From the NCBI GenBank assembly GCA_031275795.1, contig JAISOG010000004.1:1-49671 (forward strand): a DNA stretch of 49,671 nt, in the 5' to 3' direction. Below are positions 19,614 through 29,851 of the stretch, in pieces. Numbering within the stretch: position 1 is the first letter of the stretch; every line of letters starts with the position of its first letter. The stretch is from Candidatus Endomicrobiellum incisitermitis. Its GTDB lineage: Bacteria > Elusimicrobiota > Endomicrobiia > Endomicrobiales > Endomicrobiaceae. Position numbers and translations under genes: made by a program. Under the pieces are notes generated by a model. It made no database searches. It worked only from the letters and a program-made list of their open reading frames with translations, and had not been told where the DNA came from.

Positions 19614-19899
19614 ATTTAAGCATTTTGATTTTTTTATTTATTCCACCTTTTGCAGAATATCCACCCATAGTACCATCACTTCTTATAACTCTATGGCATG
19701 GAATTGTTGGCGCAAAGGGATTTTTGCTTAAAGCTAAGGCTACTGCTCTAGCAGATTTGGGAAACCCTACAATTTTTGCAATTTGTTTATAAGTTAAAGT
19801 TTTTCCTGGCGGGATATTAAAACAAGCTTTCCAGACTTTTACATAAAAACTAGGATATTGGTCCATTTGTTTAATAATACCTTGTGGTATCTTTTTCAT
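19573..19899 (-). CDS. ogt: Methylated-DNA--protein-cysteine methyltransferase (MGMT/Ogt, short)
   Basis: 108 aa, only the C-terminal catalytic domain of MGMT. Helix-turn-helix VWKACFNIPPGKTLTYKQIAKIVGFPKSARAVALAL is followed by NPFAPTIPCHRVIRSDGTMGGYSAKGG. The active-site Cys of PCHRV is present, so it is not an alkyltransferase-like (PWHR) protein. It removes O6-alkyl groups from guanine by a one-way transfer to Cys. ATGA overlap with uvrC. Confidence 0.92.
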   Translation of the reverse strand: MKKIPQGIIKQMDQYPSFYVKVWKACFNIPPGKTLTYKQIAKIVGFPKSARAVALALSKNPFAPTIPCHRVIRSDGTMGGYSAKGGINKKIKMLKYEKETGKNASLDM

Positions 19900-21197
19900 G
19901 ATAAATTAAAACTCCTTTCTCTTAATTTACGGTGATAATTTATTGCAAATCTATGAGCTTCATCTCTTACAGATTGTAAAAGTTTTAATCCTTGAGAATG
20001 TCTGCTTAATAATATAGCTTTATCTTTGTTTGGTAAAAAAATTTCTTCATTTTTTTTGGCTAAAGATATAATAGGTACTTTTATTTGTAATTCTTCTAAT
20101 GCGCTTATAGCAGCTTTTAGTTGTCCTTTACCTCCATCAATTAAAATTAAATCTGGGAATATTTCATTTTTTCTAACCAAATAAGAATATCTTCTAAAAA
20201 CTACTTCTCTCATGCTAGCAAAATCGTCTGCACCTATAACAGTTTTAATTTTAAATCTTCTATAATTTTTCTTATCAGCTAAACCGTTATGAAATCTTAC
20301 CATAGATGCAACTGCGTTTGTTCCTTGAATATTTGAATTATCAAAACCTTCTATTATCGCAGGTAGTTTGGGTAAATGTAAAAGTTTTTTAAGTTCGTTT
20401 ATACTGTCTGCCCTTTTTATAGATTGATTTATTTCATCTTTATTAATTTGGCTAATCATAACTCTTTGAGCCATACTTTTAATAGCATAAAGTCTGTCTC
20501 TTATTTCCTTAGCATCTTCATAAAGCATAGAATTGCTTAAATTAGACATTTGCATCTGTAAGTCCCTTTTAAGTTTTTTAAATTTTCCATTTAAAAACAG
20601 TTCTATATCTTTAATTTTATCTTTATAATCCTTAGAGGTAATTACTCCTAAACATGGACCATAACACATTTGAGTATGATAATAGATACAAGATTTAACT
20701 TTCTTTTCTTCAGGGCGAGCTTGTTCACTAAATTCTAACTTACATGGACGAATTTTGAAAAGTTTTATAAGCCACCTTATAAACTTTTTTATGTACAAAA
20801 GTTGAGGATATGGACCAAAATATAAAGCACCGTCTTTGAGTTTTTTTCTTGTAAATGTTAAACGAGGAAAATCTTCTTTAATTGAAAATTTTATATATGG
20901 ATAAGATTTATCATCCTTCCACATAGAGTTAAAATAAGGTTTTACTTTATTTATAAGTTCTCTTTCAACGAGCAAAGCTTCCCTTTCAGAAGTACATAAA
21001 ATATAATCTATCTTACGCATAGCAGCTATAATTGTAGTAGCTTTGGAGTCTACATTTGCGTTAAAATAGGAAGATAACCTGTCTTTTAAACTTTTTGCTT
21101 TACCTATATATATGATGTTTCCTAAAGCGTCTCTCATTATATAAACGCCAGGAACTTTAGGTATTTCTTTTAATTCTTTGTGCTTAAAATCCTTCAT
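19896..21197 (-). CDS. uvrC: Compact UvrC-like nuclease
   Basis: 433 aa, compared with about 600 for typical UvrC. Order: GIY-YIG nuclease (GVYIMRDALGNIIYIGKAKSLKDR, residues 17-40), a Cys region (CIYYHTQMCYGPCLG), the UVR helix pair (YEDAKEIRDRLYAIKSM, about 226-242) and the RNase-H-like domain (EGFDNSNIQGT at 283-293, LILIDGGKGQL at 350-360, VRDEAHRFAINYHRK at 410-424). Catalytic acids and His are present in both nuclease halves. About 100 residues between the UVR and RNase H segments are missing, as is the C-terminal (HhH)2 domain. The stop forms an ATGA overlap with the MGMT gene, so the truncation is not a local sequencing slip. It incises UvrAB-marked lesions. Confidence 0.9.
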   Translation of the reverse strand: MKDFKHKELKEIPKVPGVYIMRDALGNIIYIGKAKSLKDRLSSYFNANVDSKATTIIAAMRKIDYILCTSEREALLVERELINKVKPYFNSMWKDDKSYPYIKFSIKEDFPRLTFTRKKLKDGALYFGPYPQLLYIKKFIRWLIKLFKIRPCKLEFSEQARPEEKKVKSCIYYHTQMCYGPCLGVITSKDYKDKIKDIELFLNGKFKKLKRDLQMQMSNLSNSMLYEDAKEIRDRLYAIKSMAQRVMISQINKDEINQSIKRADSINELKKLLHLPKLPAIIEGFDNSNIQGTNAVASMVRFHNGLADKKNYRRFKIKTVIGADDFASMREVVFRRYSYLVRKNEIFPDLILIDGGKGQLKAAISALEELQIKVPIISLAKKNEEIFLPNKDKAILLSRHSQGLKLLQSVRDEAHRFAINYHRKLRERSFNLS

Positions 21198-22739: not shown

Positions 22740-23631
22740 TGACAAATCCTATATCGTTTTGAACATTTTGTGTTCTAAACCAAGTATTTTGACGTTTAGC
22801 ATAATGTCTTGTATCTTTAGAAAATTCTAAAATCATTTCTTCTTTAGAAATTTGATTATCTAAATATTCTACAATATGTCTATAACCTATGCTACTTAAA
22901 GCTGGACATTTTTTACTAAATCCTAAACTTAAAACTTTTTTAGTTTCGTCTATCATTCCATTTTCTATCATGTGCTTACAACGATTATTAATTCTACTAT
23001 AAAGTTTTTCTGTTGGCACAACAATGCTAAAGTGTTTAAAATTGTAACGCTTGTTTTTTGACTTAATGTGCTCTTTTACAGTTTTACCTGAAATAATATT
23101 TATCTCTAAAGCTCTAATAAGTCTTTGCGGGTTTGACTTGTTTTTTTTGGCAGATTCTATATCTAACTTCATAAGTTCATCATATAATTTGTCTTGAGAA
23201 AGTTTTTTTAATTGCGCTCTTAAAGTTTTGTTTGTTTTAGGCATGTCGTCTAGCCCATATAGCAAAGCTTTAATATATAAACCAGTTCCACCTACTATAA
23301 CTGGGATTTTAGCTTTATTTTGTATTTCTTTTATTTTTGAATCTGCTTGAGTTTTAAATTCGTCTGCACTGTAACTTTTATCTGGAGTGACAATATCAGT
23401 TAAATGTTGCACAATGCCATCTACTTCTCTTATACCATTTTCTAAAAAAATTCCCTCTTTATTTGTACCTATATCCAAATACTTGTAAACTTGTCTTGAA
23501 TCGCAGGAAATAATTTCACCATTGTACTTTTTACAAAACTCCACAGCCATTTTTGTTTTCCCGCTTGCTGTAGGACCAGAAATAACGACTATGTCTGGCA
23601 ATTGGCACAGAGATATGTCTGTAATAGCCAT
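22729..23631 (-). CDS. miaA: tRNA dimethylallyltransferase MiaA
   Basis: 300 aa, normal. P-loop GPTASGKT near the N-terminus, the family signature GEIISCDSRQVYKYLDIGT, VGGTGLYIKALLYGL and the C-terminal RHYAKRQNTWFR. It adds dimethylallyl to A37 of UNN-reading tRNAs, the substrate that MiaB (same operon) then methylthiolates. The start overlaps the mutL stop by one base. Confidence 0.95.
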   Translation of the reverse strand: MAITDISLCQLPDIVVISGPTASGKTKMAVEFCKKYNGEIISCDSRQVYKYLDIGTNKEGIFLENGIREVDGIVQHLTDIVTPDKSYSADEFKTQADSKIKEIQNKAKIPVIVGGTGLYIKALLYGLDDMPKTNKTLRAQLKKLSQDKLYDELMKLDIESAKKNKSNPQRLIRALEINIISGKTVKEHIKSKNKRYNFKHFSIVVPTEKLYSRINNRCKHMIENGMIDETKKVLSLGFSKKCPALSSIGYRHIVEYLDNQISKEEMILEFSKDTRHYAKRQNTWFRTQNVQNDIGFVNGR

Positions 23632-25445
23632 TATTTTCTCTTAAAAAACTTTTCTAAATCATTGAGCGAAATTTTATATGCCGTAGGTCTGCCATGAGGG
23701 CAAGTGAAAGGATATTCACATTGAAAAAGATCATCAATTATCTTTTTTATTTCTGTTAAAGAAATGTTGTCTCCTGCTTTGATACTTGCTCTACATGCAA
23801 AACGTATAATTTTATCTCTTTTTTGTGATATTTCTATGTTTTTAAAGTCTTCCATATCTGCAACTATATTTTTCACAATAGGTTCAACTTCTATGTCACC
23901 TAAGAGTGCAGGATAGGCTGTTATCCTAAAAAAATTATCGCCAAACTCTTCTATATCTATTCCTATATTTTTAAACAGGTCTATATTTGCTTTTATAATC
24001 TCTGACTCACTTTTAGAACAACTTATATTTTCGGGCATAAGTAGTGCTTGTTTTTTTATAGAACTATCTTTTATTTGAGAAAGATATAATTCATACTTTA
24101 CTCTTTCTGCTGCTGCATGTTGGTCAAAAATATATAAATTGCCTTCATTTTCAACAATTACATATGTGTTGAAAGCTTGCCCTAAAACTTTTATATTATT
24201 GTCAAATTTATTGTTAATTAAAAAAGATTCTTGTTTGCCAAACACATTTACATAGTTGTCAATGGTATAATTTTTTTGGGGAAAAGAAGTTTTCCCATAC
24301 TGTATTTTAGATTCTTGAATGTAATCAGGTTTTGATATATTGTTATTTTCATAAAAAGAGTTTTTTGGAGCTGTGCTTATGCTTATATTATTTGTTTCTA
24401 AGCTGATATTTTTTTGACTTTTATTGGTAGTGGTAACCTCAGGAATATCAGAGTAAGGTTGTGAAACTAAAGCATTTTTTAAAGTTCTATACACTATGTC
24501 ATACATTGCACTTTCATTAGCAAACTTTATCTCTTTTTTTGTTGGAGAAATATTAACGTCAATCTCGCTAGGGTTTATATTAATATAAAGTAAAATTCCA
24601 GGATATTTGTCATGTGCGATAGACTCTTTGTAAGATTGGTTTATACAATGTATAAGCCATTTAGGGAAATTTAGAGCTCTAGAATTTACAAAAAGATATT
24701 GATATTTTCTGTTTTGTAAAGCATTGTCTCTACCTGTAAAATATATGTTTAAAGAAACTGTTTCAAATGTGGCGCTGACATTTTGCAGTTTTTGTGCAAA
24801 ATCTTTACCTAAAACGTCTGAAATTCTATTTATTGTTTTATCTGTTTTTAGAGTAGAAAAAATTATTTTGTTTTCAGAAACCATTTTAAAAGAAACACCT
24901 TTATTACCTAGAGCAATTTCTTCTAAAGTGCTTATGATTTTTGTTCGTTCTGTGACATCACTTTTTAAAAATTTATATCTTACAGGCACATTAAAAAATA
25001 AATCTTTAACTTCGGTTATAGTACCTTCAGCCAAAGAAGATGGTAAAACTTCTATATCTTTGCCACCTTTTACTGAAAGTTTCCACCCAGAAACATCGCC
25101 TCTTTTTCTAGTTTTGATTTCAAGGTTTGAAACAGCTGCTATAGATGCTAGGGCTTCTCCTCTAAAACCAAAAGAATGTATGTGAGATAGATCGTTAAAA
25201 CTGGCTATTTTGCTTGTAGCGTGTCGCATTATGGAAAGCTCCAAATCCTTTTTGTCCATACCAGAGCCGTCATCTTGCACTCTTATAAGCTTTTTACCTG
25301 CTTGCTCTATTTCCACTATTATAGACGAAGAAAGTGCATCTAAAGAATTATCTACTAACTCTTTAACTACACTTAAAGGACGCTCTACAACTTCACCTGC
25401 AGCTATTTTGTTAATTGTTTCTTGAGGCAAAATGTTTATAGACAC
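23631..25445 (-). CDS. mutL: DNA mismatch repair protein MutL (endonuclease type)
   Basis: 604 aa. N-terminal GHKL ATPase: AAGEVVERPLSVVKELVDNSLDA, DDGSGM, RHATSKIASF, GFRGEALASIA. The C-terminal dimerisation domain carries DQHAAAERVKYE, matching the metal-binding endonuclease motif DQHA-x2-E-x4-E, plus ACRASIKAGD and CPHGRPT. It is therefore expected to nick DNA itself, consistent with a MutH-independent repair system. The start is GTG at 25445 with AAGAGG 7 nt upstream; 11 nt separate it from mutS. Confidence 0.95.
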   Translation of the reverse strand: MSINILPQETINKIAAGEVVERPLSVVKELVDNSLDALSSSIIVEIEQAGKKLIRVQDDGSGMDKKDLELSIMRHATSKIASFNDLSHIHSFGFRGEALASIAAVSNLEIKTRKRGDVSGWKLSVKGGKDIEVLPSSLAEGTITEVKDLFFNVPVRYKFLKSDVTERTKIISTLEEIALGNKGVSFKMVSENKIIFSTLKTDKTINRISDVLGKDFAQKLQNVSATFETVSLNIYFTGRDNALQNRKYQYLFVNSRALNFPKWLIHCINQSYKESIAHDKYPGILLYININPSEIDVNISPTKKEIKFANESAMYDIVYRTLKNALVSQPYSDIPEVTTTNKSQKNISLETNNISISTAPKNSFYENNNISKPDYIQESKIQYGKTSFPQKNYTIDNYVNVFGKQESFLINNKFDNNIKVLGQAFNTYVIVENEGNLYIFDQHAAAERVKYELYLSQIKDSSIKKQALLMPENISCSKSESEIIKANIDLFKNIGIDIEEFGDNFFRITAYPALLGDIEVEPIVKNIVADMEDFKNIEISQKRDKIIRFACRASIKAGDNISLTEIKKIIDDLFQCEYPFTCPHGRPTAYKISLNDLEKFFKRK

Positions 25446-25456
25446 AAAAAAACCTC

Positions 25457-28048
25457 TTAATTATATTTTTCTTTCCAATCAGATAGTATCTTTAAGGCTT
25501 TTGTTGGACTTAAAGCATCAAGATCTACATTACGTAAATCTTGTAGAATTTTTGAATCTTCTTGAACTAAACTATTTTTGTCGCCACTAATAAGAAAATC
25601 AATTTGACTATCTGCGTTACTTTTAGAAATTGTTTGGTGATTTGCTTCTAACTTATTTAAAATTTTGTACGCTCTATCTATAACCTTATTTGGAATACCA
25701 GCAATTTTTGCAACGTGTATACCATAAGATTTATCTGCACTACCTTTAATTATTTTATGTAAAAATACAACATCTCCATTATATTCTTTGACGCTAACAT
25801 TATAGTTTACTATACCGCTAAAAGTGTTTGATAAATCTGTAAGTTCAAAATAATGTGTTGCAAAAAGCACTTTTACACCGTTATTAGCTTTCTTTTTAAC
25901 ATCTGCAAAAAACTCTATTATAGACCAAGCTATAGACATTCCATCGTATGTTGAAGTTCCTCTGCCAACCTCATCTAAAATAATTAAACTTTTTTGAGTA
26001 TATTGGTTTAGTATCGTTGCAGTTTCAGACATTTCTGTCATAAATGTAGATTGGCCACCTGCAAGATTATCGCCTGCCCCTATTCTTGTAAAAATTCTAT
26101 CTATAACGCCGATTTTAGCTTCACGTGCAGGGACAAAACAACCAATTTGTGCCATTATAACAATAAGTGCAGTTTGTCTTAAGTATGTTGATTTACCGGC
26201 CATGTTAGGACCTGTAATGATAATAATTTTTAAATTTTCGTCAAAACTAACGTCATTAGATACAAACTCTCCATTTTTTAAAATTCGCTCAACCACTGGA
26301 TGTCTTCCATCTTTAATATAAAGTTCTTGTGTGTTTGTTATTATAGGGCAAATATAATCATGTTCTAAAGCATCTTTAGCAAAACCACAAAAAATATCTA
26401 TTTCAGCAACAATTTGTGAGGTTTTTAAAATATCTTGCAAATATGAAATAATTTCTAGTTTCAAACTATCAAAAAGTTCATTTTCTAATATTAAAATTTT
26501 TTCTTGGGAAGATAAAATTTTTTCTTCCAAAGCTTTCAATTCTTCAGTTATATAACGCTCTGCGTTTGTAAGTGTTTGTTTTCTGATATAGTGTTTTGGA
26601 GCTAGATCAATATTGGATTTAGTAATTTCTATATAGTACCCAAATACAGAAGTGTACCCTATCTTAAGATTATTAATACCTGTTGCTTGTTTTTCTTTGC
26701 TTTCTATATTAGATATATACGTTTTAACGTCTGTAGATAATTTTCTTAATTCGTCTAAGTTGTCTGATACTCCATTTTTGATTACCCCTCCATCTTTTAA
26801 AGATATTGGAGGATCATCTACGATAAAATTAGAAATCCTGCTAATAACTTGCTCGTTTTTTGGAATATTAATAGGTAACCCTGACACAGAATTAATAATG
26901 ATAGATATTTCATTTACTAATTTCAAAGAATGTTTTAATGCTATTAAATCTTTCGGACTTACAGTTAGAGAAGAAATTCTTGCCGCTATTCTTTCAATAT
27001 CTGAAATTCTTTTAAGCTTCTCTATAACATCTTTGCGCACATTAGAATTATCTATAAAAAACTTTACAACATTTTGGCGATTTTTTATTTTTTCAATATC
27101 CAAAAGAGGTTGTATAATCCAGTTACGTAAAGTTCTTGCCCCCATAGCAGTTTTTGTAGAGTCTATTACCCAAAGAAGAGAATTTTCAAGCTTCCCACTA
27201 CACATAGAAGATAAAATTTCAAGGTTTTTTATTGCAACAGTATCTAAGTACATGAAATCTGAATTTCTAATATACCTTATATTGGAAAAAATACCAATAC
27301 TTTGCGGTTGCATTTCTTGTATATAAGAAATTAAAGCACCGCATACACAAACTGTCCCCTTCTTACTTAAGCCAAACTTTTTTACAGCATTGAAAGCAAA
27401 AAGTTTCTCTATGGTGTTTTTAGCATTTTCATAGTCAAAAAAATTATTATCTATATTTGAAATAGGTATTTTTATATTGGAAATAAGATCTTGCACATAC
27501 TTATTTTGAATATTATTTGAGTATATAAGAAGTTCACTGACATTGTATTTTGATATTTCTGTAGTGATCGCTTTTAATGTTGTTTCTAATGTAAAAAATT
27601 GTCCTGTAGATATGTCTGCAAAAGCAACAAAAAAAGAATCATTTACATTTTCAAAATATAGTGCCATTAAAAAATTATTTTCTTTTGATTCTAAAAGTAC
27701 ATCTTCTAAAACAGTACCTGGCGTTATAACTTTAGTTACTCCTCGTTTTACTATAGCACCTTTTGAAATCTTGGCATCTTCAAGTTGATCACAAATGGCT
27801 ACTTTTAAACCATTTGATATAAGCTTTCTAATATAAGAATTTGCCGAATGATATGGTATTCCACACATGGAAATACCTGAACGTTGAGTTAAGACAACGT
27901 CTAAAATAGGAGCAGCTTTTGATGCATCCGGGCCAAACATTTCATAAAAATCACCTAATCTAAAAAATAGAATCATTTCAGAATACTTTGACTTAATATC
28001 CCAATATTGTTGCATTAAGGGTGTTAGTTTGTTAGAAAGATTATTTAT
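25457..28048 (-). CDS. mutS: DNA mismatch repair protein MutS
   Basis: About 863 aa from the proposed start. Mismatch-binding motif GDFYEMF (Phe-x-Glu), P-loop GPNMAGKSTYLRQ, Walker B SLIILDEVGRGTST and ATHYFELTDL are intact. The first ATG at 28015 would start the protein at MQQYW, but in-frame codons upstream encode LTPLMQQYW, matching the conserved TPMMQQY N-terminus of the family. The frame is closed by TAA further up, and no ATG, GTG or TTG lies between. An ATA codon at 28046-28048 has GGAGA 6 nt upstream, whereas the ATG at 28015 has none, so I propose an AUA start. It follows the transglycosylase gene directly and precedes mutL. Confidence 0.93.
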   Translation of the reverse strand: MNNLSNKLTPLMQQYWDIKSKYSEMILFFRLGDFYEMFGPDASKAAPILDVVLTQRSGISMCGIPYHSANSYIRKLISNGLKVAICDQLEDAKISKGAIVKRGVTKVITPGTVLEDVLLESKENNFLMALYFENVNDSFFVAFADISTGQFFTLETTLKAITTEISKYNVSELLIYSNNIQNKYVQDLISNIKIPISNIDNNFFDYENAKNTIEKLFAFNAVKKFGLSKKGTVCVCGALISYIQEMQPQSIGIFSNIRYIRNSDFMYLDTVAIKNLEILSSMCSGKLENSLLWVIDSTKTAMGARTLRNWIIQPLLDIEKIKNRQNVVKFFIDNSNVRKDVIEKLKRISDIERIAARISSLTVSPKDLIALKHSLKLVNEISIIINSVSGLPINIPKNEQVISRISNFIVDDPPISLKDGGVIKNGVSDNLDELRKLSTDVKTYISNIESKEKQATGINNLKIGYTSVFGYYIEITKSNIDLAPKHYIRKQTLTNAERYITEELKALEEKILSSQEKILILENELFDSLKLEIISYLQDILKTSQIVAEIDIFCGFAKDALEHDYICPIITNTQELYIKDGRHPVVERILKNGEFVSNDVSFDENLKIIIITGPNMAGKSTYLRQTALIVIMAQIGCFVPAREAKIGVIDRIFTRIGAGDNLAGGQSTFMTEMSETATILNQYTQKSLIILDEVGRGTSTYDGMSIAWSIIEFFADVKKKANNGVKVLFATHYFELTDLSNTFSGIVNYNVSVKEYNGDVVFLHKIIKGSADKSYGIHVAKIAGIPNKVIDRAYKILNKLEANHQTISKSNADSQIDFLISGDKNSLVQEDSKILQDLRNVDLDALSPTKALKILSDWKEKYN

Positions 28049-28595
28049 TTGTCTTCTCCGTTAAAAAAATAAATTTTAAATACTTATATACTTTATAAGT
28101 AAATATTATTGATTTCACATAATTTTTAGTTTCGTTAAATGGTATATCTTTAATTTTTAAATCTGTTTTTTGTTTATACCACTTATCTACATTACCTATC
28201 CCTGCATTATATGCAGATAAAGCTAAGATTAAGTTATTATTATAATGATTTAAAAGTTTAGACACATAGTAAACACCAAACATAATGTTTGTTTTTGGTT
28301 CTTTTAAAGAGCTAATAGAAAGATTTGGGACTTTTAATTCTTTTGATATTTCTCGTGCAGTTTTTGGCATTAACTGCATTAAACCAACTGCACCTTTACT
28401 GGAAATAGCGTTTACATTTAAGTTAGATTCTTTTTTCATAATAGCTTTTATTAAAATAGGGTCAACATTAAAACTATTAGAATATTCATATATATAATAA
28501 TCGTATGGGTTTTTTTCAAATAAACCTAATACCTGCAAAATACTAAAAATTGTAATTATAACTACTACAAGTATTATATAAATAATTTTTTTCAT
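28041..28595 (-). CDS. Membrane-anchored lytic transglycosylase (SLT family)
   Basis: 184 aa. An N-terminal uncleaved-looking hydrophobic anchor (IIYIILVVVIITIFSILQVLGLF) precedes an SLT/goose-lysozyme-type domain: IMKKESNLNVNAISSKGAVGLMQLMP with the catalytic Glu in KKES, then FGVYYVSKLL and ALSAYNAGIGNVDKW. It cleaves the MurNAc-GlcNAc bond of peptidoglycan to the 1,6-anhydro product. The domain is close to Slt70/MltE types. ATGA overlap with miaB. Confidence 0.92.
   Translation of the reverse strand: MKKIIYIILVVVIITIFSILQVLGLFEKNPYDYYIYEYSNSFNVDPILIKAIMKKESNLNVNAISSKGAVGLMQLMPKTAREISKELKVPNLSISSLKEPKTNIMFGVYYVSKLLNHYNNNLILALSAYNAGIGNVDKWYKQKTDLKIKDIPFNETKNYVKSIIFTYKVYKYLKFIFLTEKTNK
28046..28059 (-). 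promoter_or_regulatory. Shine-Dalgarno and putative AUA initiation codon of mutS
   Basis: GGAGA (28055-28059 on the minus strand) is followed after 6 nt by ATA (28046-28048). The Shine-Dalgarno lies within the last codons of the lytic transglycosylase gene, whose TAA is at 28041-28043, so the two genes would overlap by 8 nt. Confidence 0.5.
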
Positions 28596-29851
28596 ACAAT
28601 ATTGCCAAAAAGCGAGTTTACCTTTGACTCGTTTATGTGCACATTAAAAATTTTTCCAATGTAATTCTTGTCTGTATTTTTTATAAAAACTTTACGCCCA
28701 CTGCTAGTTCTTGCTTCTAAAACATTAAAATTAAAACTTTCAGCTAAAACTTCAAAAGTTTTACCAACCATAGAAGAGACAATCTCGGTAGAAATTTTAT
28801 TTGACTCATTTAAAATAATAGAGTGCCGCCTCTTTTTTTCCTTTAAAGGCACATCATCAAACATGCTTGAAGCTTTGGTATTAGGTCTTGGCGAATATCT
28901 AAATACATACAGACCATCAAAACGAATATTTTGTACAGCTTTAAAAGTATCGTTGAAATCTTTTTCTGTTTCACCAGGGAAACCGACTATAACATCTGTT
29001 GTTATGCTTATATCAGAAATTTTGTTTTTTAAATTATTTACGAGTTCTAAATAGTGCTCATAAGTATACTTTCTATTCATCTCTTTTAAAACTTTATTTG
29101 AGCCAGATTGCATCGGTAAATGCATATGATGACAAATTTTCTTTTCACTAACAATAAGGTCTATTAAGTCATGGCTTAAATCTTTGGGATGATTTGTCAT
29201 AAATCTTAATCTTTCTAATCCATCAATTTTACAAATATTTTTAACTAAAGATACAAAATTTGTAGAATTATATTTATAAGAATTCACATTTTGGCCTAAA
29301 AGCATTATTTCTTTTGTTCCATTTTTTACCATTATTTCACATTTGTCAAGTATAACTTTGTTGTCTAAACTAATTTCTTTTCCTCTTAAAAAAGGGACTA
29401 TACAATAAGCACAAAAATTATTGCAACCTCTCATAATTGTAATATATCTTACAATTTTTGATGATTTGTTAATTAAAATGTCGCTACTTGTTTTTTCAAA
29501 ACTACATAAATTCAAAATTTTTAAAGCAAAATTATCTATGTCTTTTGTTCCAAGCACTAAATCTACAGTTTTAAAACGCTTTTTAACTTTTGTTCCTAAC
29601 CTTTCTGCCATACAACCAATTACAACAATTTTAATGTTTGGTTTTTGTTTTTTAATCTCTTCTGCTCTTCCAAGGTAAGAAAATGCCTTTTGTTCTGCTT
29701 GTGCTCGTACTGAACATGTGTTCAATATAATTATATCAGCATCTAACGTATTATTTACCTGTACCATTCCGTAAGTTGAAAGCATGCTAGAAAGTGTTTC
29801 TGACTCGCACACATTCATTTGACATCCAATAGTCTCAATTAAATATCTCAA
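28592..29851 (-). CDS. miaB: tRNA-2-methylthio-N6-dimethylallyladenosine synthase MiaB
   Basis: 419 aa. Radical-SAM methylthiotransferase: N-terminal UPF0004 domain with GCQMNVCES, LNTCSVRAQAEQKAFSYLG and GCMAERLG holding three cluster Cys; radical-SAM motif RGCNNFCAYCIVPFLRG (C-x3-C-x2-C); GFPGETEKDF; and a C-terminal TRAM domain. It converts i6A37 to ms2i6A37 downstream of MiaA. The start is TTG at 29851 with AGAGG 7 nt upstream, as needed to keep the YLIETIGCQMN start. First gene of its operon. Confidence 0.95.
   Translation of the reverse strand: MRYLIETIGCQMNVCESETLSSMLSTYGMVQVNNTLDADIIILNTCSVRAQAEQKAFSYLGRAEEIKKQKPNIKIVVIGCMAERLGTKVKKRFKTVDLVLGTKDIDNFALKILNLCSFEKTSSDILINKSSKIVRYITIMRGCNNFCAYCIVPFLRGKEISLDNKVILDKCEIMVKNGTKEIMLLGQNVNSYKYNSTNFVSLVKNICKIDGLERLRFMTNHPKDLSHDLIDLIVSEKKICHHMHLPMQSGSNKVLKEMNRKYTYEHYLELVNNLKNKISDISITTDVIVGFPGETEKDFNDTFKAVQNIRFDGLYVFRYSPRPNTKASSMFDDVPLKEKKRRHSIILNESNKISTEIVSSMVGKTFEVLAESFNFNVLEARTSSGRKVFIKNTDKNYIGKIFNVHINESKVNSLFGNIV

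Follow-up and report, generated by a model that had tools for sequence, protein, structure and literature searches.

The mutS gene of Candidatus Endomicrobiellum incisitermitis almost certainly starts at an AUA codon, as judged from a 49,671-nucleotide stretch of its genome (the window; contig JAISOG010000004.1) and the comparison of this stretch with related genomes. The reading that best accounts for the data, to which we assign a probability of roughly 0.85, is that this AUA is selected by a Shine-Dalgarno sequence and was inherited from an AUU start, that initiation limited by IF3 would yield modest amounts of MutS, and that overlap with the upstream slt gene held the start in its non-AUG state.

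Written in the mutS frame, the start region on the minus strand is TAA(28063) CGG AGA AGA CAA ATA(28048) AAT AAT CTT TCT AAC AAA CTA ACA CCC TTA ATG(28015) CAA CAA TAT TGG. Several points made when this DNA was first read from its letters alone hold up: the open stretch from the in-frame TAA (28063-28061) to ATG 28015 contains neither ATG nor GTG nor TTG, and a GGAGA (28059-28055) stands, exactly where it had been placed, a 6-nt spacer (AGACAA) ahead of ATA 28048-28046. Equally, ATG 28015 was correctly said to lack a Shine-Dalgarno sequence, as none is present in the stretch preceding it (AACAAACTAACACCCTTA), and to cost the protein its conserved TP. In the AUA-initiated protein the Pfam MutS_I match starts with residue 9, the T of TPLMQQY, so that a start at 28015 would strip TPL, the first three positions of the profile. 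The gene thus has no canonical start codon at or above its conserved N-terminus, as an ordinary AUG, GUG or UUG gene would. MutS1 domains I-V all score above the Pfam cut-off and the translation contains the ATPase motifs GPNMAGKST and ILDEVGRGTSTYDG. The duplex of the Shine-Dalgarno sequence with the 3' end of 16S rRNA (GGATCACCTCCTTT, read in L229) has a computed energy of -6.6 kcal/mol, and a third of the genome's genes have one as strong or stronger. The start region folds only weakly as RNA (-2.6 kcal/mol across 80 nt), so structural control is not evident, and no Rfam elements were found in the window. Pfam assignments give the gene order miaB-like, slt, mutS, mutL, miaA, murJ, uvrC (Table 1).

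Table 1. Features at and around the mutS start, in window coordinates except for infC, which lies on another stretch of the same genome.
Feature	Position	Strand	Basis
mutS AUA start codon (predicted)	28046..28048	-	Sole plausible initiator between in-frame TAA and conserved TPLMQQY; ATA in 5/5 subclade genomes
Shine-Dalgarno GGAGA, 6 nt 5' of AUA	28055..28059	-	Sequence; -6.6 kcal/mol duplex
In-frame TAA, upstream limit of open mutS frame	28061..28063	-	Sequence
mutS CDS from AUA, 863 aa	25457..28048	-	Pfam MutS_I, II, III, IV, V above cut-off; dN/dS
N-terminal (M)NNLSNKLTPL, lost if start is ATG 28015	28016..28048	-	TPL present in every family member and outgroup examined
Internal Met codon of TPLMQQY, not start	28013..28015	-	Without Shine-Dalgarno; GTG in L148; homology extends upstream
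slt, transglycosylase SLT domain protein	28041..28595	-	Pfam SLT E=8.7e-34; overlap geometry
MiaB-like radical SAM / UPF0004 / TRAM protein, next gene upstream, overlaps slt	28592..29851	-	Pfam
mutL, GTG start, next gene downstream of mutS	23631..25445	-	Pfam MutL_C, DNA_mis_repair
infC (loci L241, L277; family loci L231-L260)	G000:C12, about 19832-20086	-	Located from Pfam positions

It could be argued that MutS simply starts at ATG 28015, the earliest canonical codon in the frame and the one that gene finders restricted to ATG, GTG and TTG would choose, with the homology upstream of it untranslated or irrelevant. We consider this very unlikely. TPL precedes the internal Met in every relative examined, in the family as well as among the outgroups, and is thus conserved at the protein level; outgroup mutS genes have canonical starts well above the TPLMQQY Met; and within the subclade of the window the codons just above ATG 28015 vary mostly at silent positions (CTA/TTA, ACA/ACG, CCC/CCT). 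The ATG itself is without a Shine-Dalgarno sequence and has become GTG in L148.

The closest named relatives, all from termite guts, are Candidatus Endomicrobiellum roisinitermitis (95% identity), cryptotermitis (94%), siamense (81%) and cubanum (80%), and each of the four, as a separate assembly, has ATA at the mutS start. When mutS is aligned with that of close relatives, the site is ATA in all five species-level genomes of the window's subclade and aligns with ATT or ATC in other relatives, with TPL upstream of the internal Met throughout. Such comparison strongly supports AUA initiation as the sequence-only reading had proposed it, and speaks against its second suggestion, a recent ATG-to-ATA mutation under weak selection on repair. 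That the ATA reflects such a mutation, pseudogene decay or a base-call error is highly improbable: it is shared by five separately assembled genomes whose nearest outgroups have ATT, not ATG, the 863-aa frame is intact, and dN/dS of 0.11-0.22 against relatives indicates purifying selection. What favours decay or error is that several genomes of the genus have a broken or missing mutS; the gene is interrupted or fragmentary in L015, L017, L023 and L148 and absent from others, some of these assemblies being incomplete. An error in the base calls at 28046-28048 is excluded, as the same ATA is carried by separate MAGs (L031, L032, L033 and L035) from different termite samples.

We then surveyed 77 genomes of the Endomicrobiaceae and could assign the mutS start in 64, with ambiguous assignments in L006, L017, L018, L122, L022 and L145. 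Half of the 64 start at ATH (24 ATT, 6 ATA, 2 ATC) and half at ATG, and the ATH genomes span eight genera (g1, g21, g22, g23, g24, g26, g28 and g30). In a maximum likelihood tree built from the first ~330 residues of MutS, the ATH genomes sit in one clade of 45 taxa nested in ATG-starting groups; support for this clade is 94/94 without the long branch L143 and 87/59 with it. The ATA subclade of the window has support of 100/100, and its nearest relatives and outgroups have ATT. The tree calls for 8 switches between ATG and non-ATG, or 12 when all four codons are distinguished, indicating that AUU has an early origin, gave way to AUA and AUC no fewer than four times, and yielded to AUG on several occasions; since AUG has returned repeatedly, a non-AUG start of mutS is not indispensable. 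Comparison of the predicted starts thus shows the window's AUA to derive from an AUU ancestral to most of the Endomicrobiaceae, and the codon of the ATH clade to have shifted among AUU, AUC and AUA with a strong putative Shine-Dalgarno sequence retained.

The strength of that Shine-Dalgarno sequence, computed for each site as the duplex energy with the 16S 3' end, tracks the start codon. All 32 ATH sites are strong (-12.1 to -6.2 kcal/mol) and the ATG sites are weak (-6.4 to +0.8 kcal/mol, median -3.6), a nearly complete separation (rank test U=2, kinship ignored) that is partly circular for L006, L017, L018 and L122, where the Shine-Dalgarno sequence helped to pick among neighbouring codons. 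With independent pairs on well-supported branches, four of four agree in nearly all random pairings (sign test p 0.125). Weaker start codons are known to accompany stronger Shine-Dalgarno sequences, as Belinky et al. 2017 described for AUG, GUG and UUG (PMC5622118); the trend in mutS is the same, but its codons are AUU, AUC and AUA. No lineage pairs an ATG start of mutS with a strong Shine-Dalgarno sequence, which suggests that MutS output is held down, and the weak codon may plausibly be what keeps it low.

A second possible cause of the weak codon, missed when the sequence was first read, is the overlap with slt. The mutS start of 15 ATT genomes lies inside slt, which extends 22-37 nt past it, always in the same frame, and codes there for a conserved tail (KGAEKLRNLLKIKK-like); within it the mutS Shine-Dalgarno sequence AAAGGAGC doubles as K-G-A codons and the start codon region forms TTA (Leu). 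The base after the mutS AUU is A in every one of these 15 genomes, so that AUG would create UGA and shorten slt. Among outgroups whose mutS also overlaps slt in this frame, the base behind ATG is G or C and never A, which yields no UGA. Within the AUU-derived clade, overlap coincides with ATH in 21 of 22 genomes, and lineages in which slt ends before mutS or has been lost often have AUG.

These same observations would be expected if the overlap were a pure trap, with the non-AUG codon bringing no regulatory benefit, held because AUG truncates slt and carried on by inertia in the window's lineage. We regard this as a serious possibility, though with somewhat less than even odds. It has to contend with the nine or more genomes that retain ATH without overlapping slt, with the window's own subclade, which keeps ATA even though AUG at 28048 would at most alter the last slt residue (Lys to Glu), and with the want of any lineage in which AUG joins a strong Shine-Dalgarno sequence, suggestive of restrained output. 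From this pattern, the overlap probably explains the fixation and long persistence of AUU but not fully the retention of AUA in the window.

In the window the slt stop TAA (28043-28041) falls within the mutS start region, 5 nt past the first base of AUA, and in L111 an ATAA at the mutS start is itself the slt stop. The frame of the slt C-terminus differs among near relatives through a poly-T tract of T7 or T8 (window 28041-28075), and slt ends in TEKTNK-stop in the window and KGADK-stop in L111. Both the overlap and the variable tract length are features one might look for in an Slt-MutS fusion made by ribosomes that shift frame on the tract or close to the slt stop. Such a fusion is scarcely credible, however, because ATH and the Shine-Dalgarno sequence persist in genomes that lack slt or in which it stops far upstream (L014, L015, L021, L023) and a TAA directly behind the T tract closes the mutS frame.

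The rarity of such starts was assessed in 522 orthologue pairs of at least 90 aa each, drawn from stretches of the genome itself (G000, 1.10 Mb including overlaps) and from G067 (1.12 Mb including overlaps). Among them, only mutS and infC in this genome had a Shine-Dalgarno sequence and a non-canonical codon together with an N-terminus conserved above the first canonical codon. A canonical start column was common to 436 other pairs, with 383 ATG, 28 GTG and 25 TTG in this genome. Other apparent extensions either stopped at an ATG or GTG lying behind the region of homology or turned out to be broken genes, rRNA or shadow frames. A candidate at L212/L195 (TTG versus ATT) was rejected as a start since on inspection it rather resembles a prfB programmed-frameshift site AGGAGGTCTCTTTGA; the frameshift-like site AGGAGGTCTCTTTGAT, at about 7520-7545 in L212 and about 12450-12475 in L195, resembles that of prfB (RF2). 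At L208, ATG has changed to ATA in G067 alone, without a Shine-Dalgarno sequence.

The infC start in this genome reads AGAGGAGGAATC GTC GAA AAC. Its conserved N-terminus is without AUG, GUG or UUG; most of the family has a putative GUC start preceded by GAGGAGG, others have AUA, and every one of the 29 readable family copies carries GTC or ATA, with GTA in G067. The lineage thus seems to possess IF3-type control exerted through the infC start codon itself, and the survey turned up a single further gene of this start class, mutS. No sign was seen of an unusual tRNA that might read AUA at initiation, and an initiator tRNA with a CAU anticodon is present (G000:C15:18283-18356, minus strand; loci L301-L330). 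Its anticodon stem is UCAGG/CCUGA; in all 30 copies examined the 29:41 pair, usually the first of three G-C pairs, is A-U.

Our preferred reading, AUA initiation selected by the Shine-Dalgarno sequence, would operate as follows. The Shine-Dalgarno sequence 6 nt upstream would position the 30S subunit at AUA 28048, where the ordinary formyl-Met initiator tRNA would decode the codon by imperfect pairing; IF3 would slow acceptance of AUA, such that MutS would be made at a fraction of the rate from AUG, and ribosomes terminating slt at the same spot may assist initiation. By analogy with the family's infC (GUC/AUA start), we infer that mutS initiation is slow and limited by IF3, leaving MutS modest in amount and tied to IF3. 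The long survival of the non-AUG codon would stem from the position of the start within the last part of slt, in which an AUG with A behind it writes UGA; in the window's subclade slt has presumably been shortened and the trap lost, with AUA and its strong Shine-Dalgarno sequence remaining.

In this respect mutS would join a known class of genes with non-canonical starts (infC, pcnB, sigR and ccpN), the gene itself being unexpected and its history of overlap unusual, and it displays three traits of genes whose starts are discriminated by IF3: a near-cognate codon, a strong, spaced Shine-Dalgarno sequence and conservation among relatives. Escherichia coli pcnB, a gene outside translation, is reportedly held low by its AUU start, a finding attributed to Binns and Masters in 2002. 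It is another gene in another phylum, and mutS differs in overlapping its upstream gene. Bacterial infC (AUU/AUA) likewise has a lineage-conserved near-cognate start behind a strong Shine-Dalgarno sequence, but is autoregulated by its own product, whereas MutS is a repair ATPase without a known role in initiation. The start of infC is AUA in Staphylococcus aureus (PMC13009471), where AUA or AUU starts with strong Shine-Dalgarno sequences gave ~10% of AUG activity in reporters and ccpN up to 30%, in rich medium (PMC13009471). There, ccpN (AUA) and cvfC1 (AUU) combine a conserved codon with an extended Shine-Dalgarno sequence as mutS does, but their starts were mapped by Ribo-Ret (PMC13009471) and that of mutS comes from comparison. 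Streptomyces sigR, the first documented GUC start, is repressed by IF3, by experiment (PMC5472188), and shares with mutS a conserved non-canonical start, an extensive Shine-Dalgarno sequence, an overlapping or coupled operon and a history of being missed by annotation pipelines (PMC5472188); its start is conserved within one genus, whereas ATH in mutS extends over eight genera, as seen here by sequence comparison. We found no literature joining an AUU start codon with mutS, and the main text of the Endomicrobia genome paper is silent on mutS, on mismatch repair and on start codons (PMC11257099).

Very few bacterial genes are known to have AUU, AUA or AUC as a conserved start. With at least eight genera, a third base free among A, U and C, and a strong Shine-Dalgarno sequence, mutS offers a natural experiment on trade-offs between initiation signals, and it also illustrates how an overlapping gene can forbid AUG. 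In the Endomicrobiaceae, mutS and probably also infC would be cut short by annotation that admits only ATG, GTG and TTG starts. More tentatively, and at less than even odds in our view, mutS and infC may form a standing IF3-controlled set across the family, with the mutS start fixed by overlap and kept for dose, so that repair dose and the rates of mutation and recombination follow the state of initiation. Should MutS dose indeed follow IF3, translation would be coupled to the rates at which these termite symbionts mutate and recombine.
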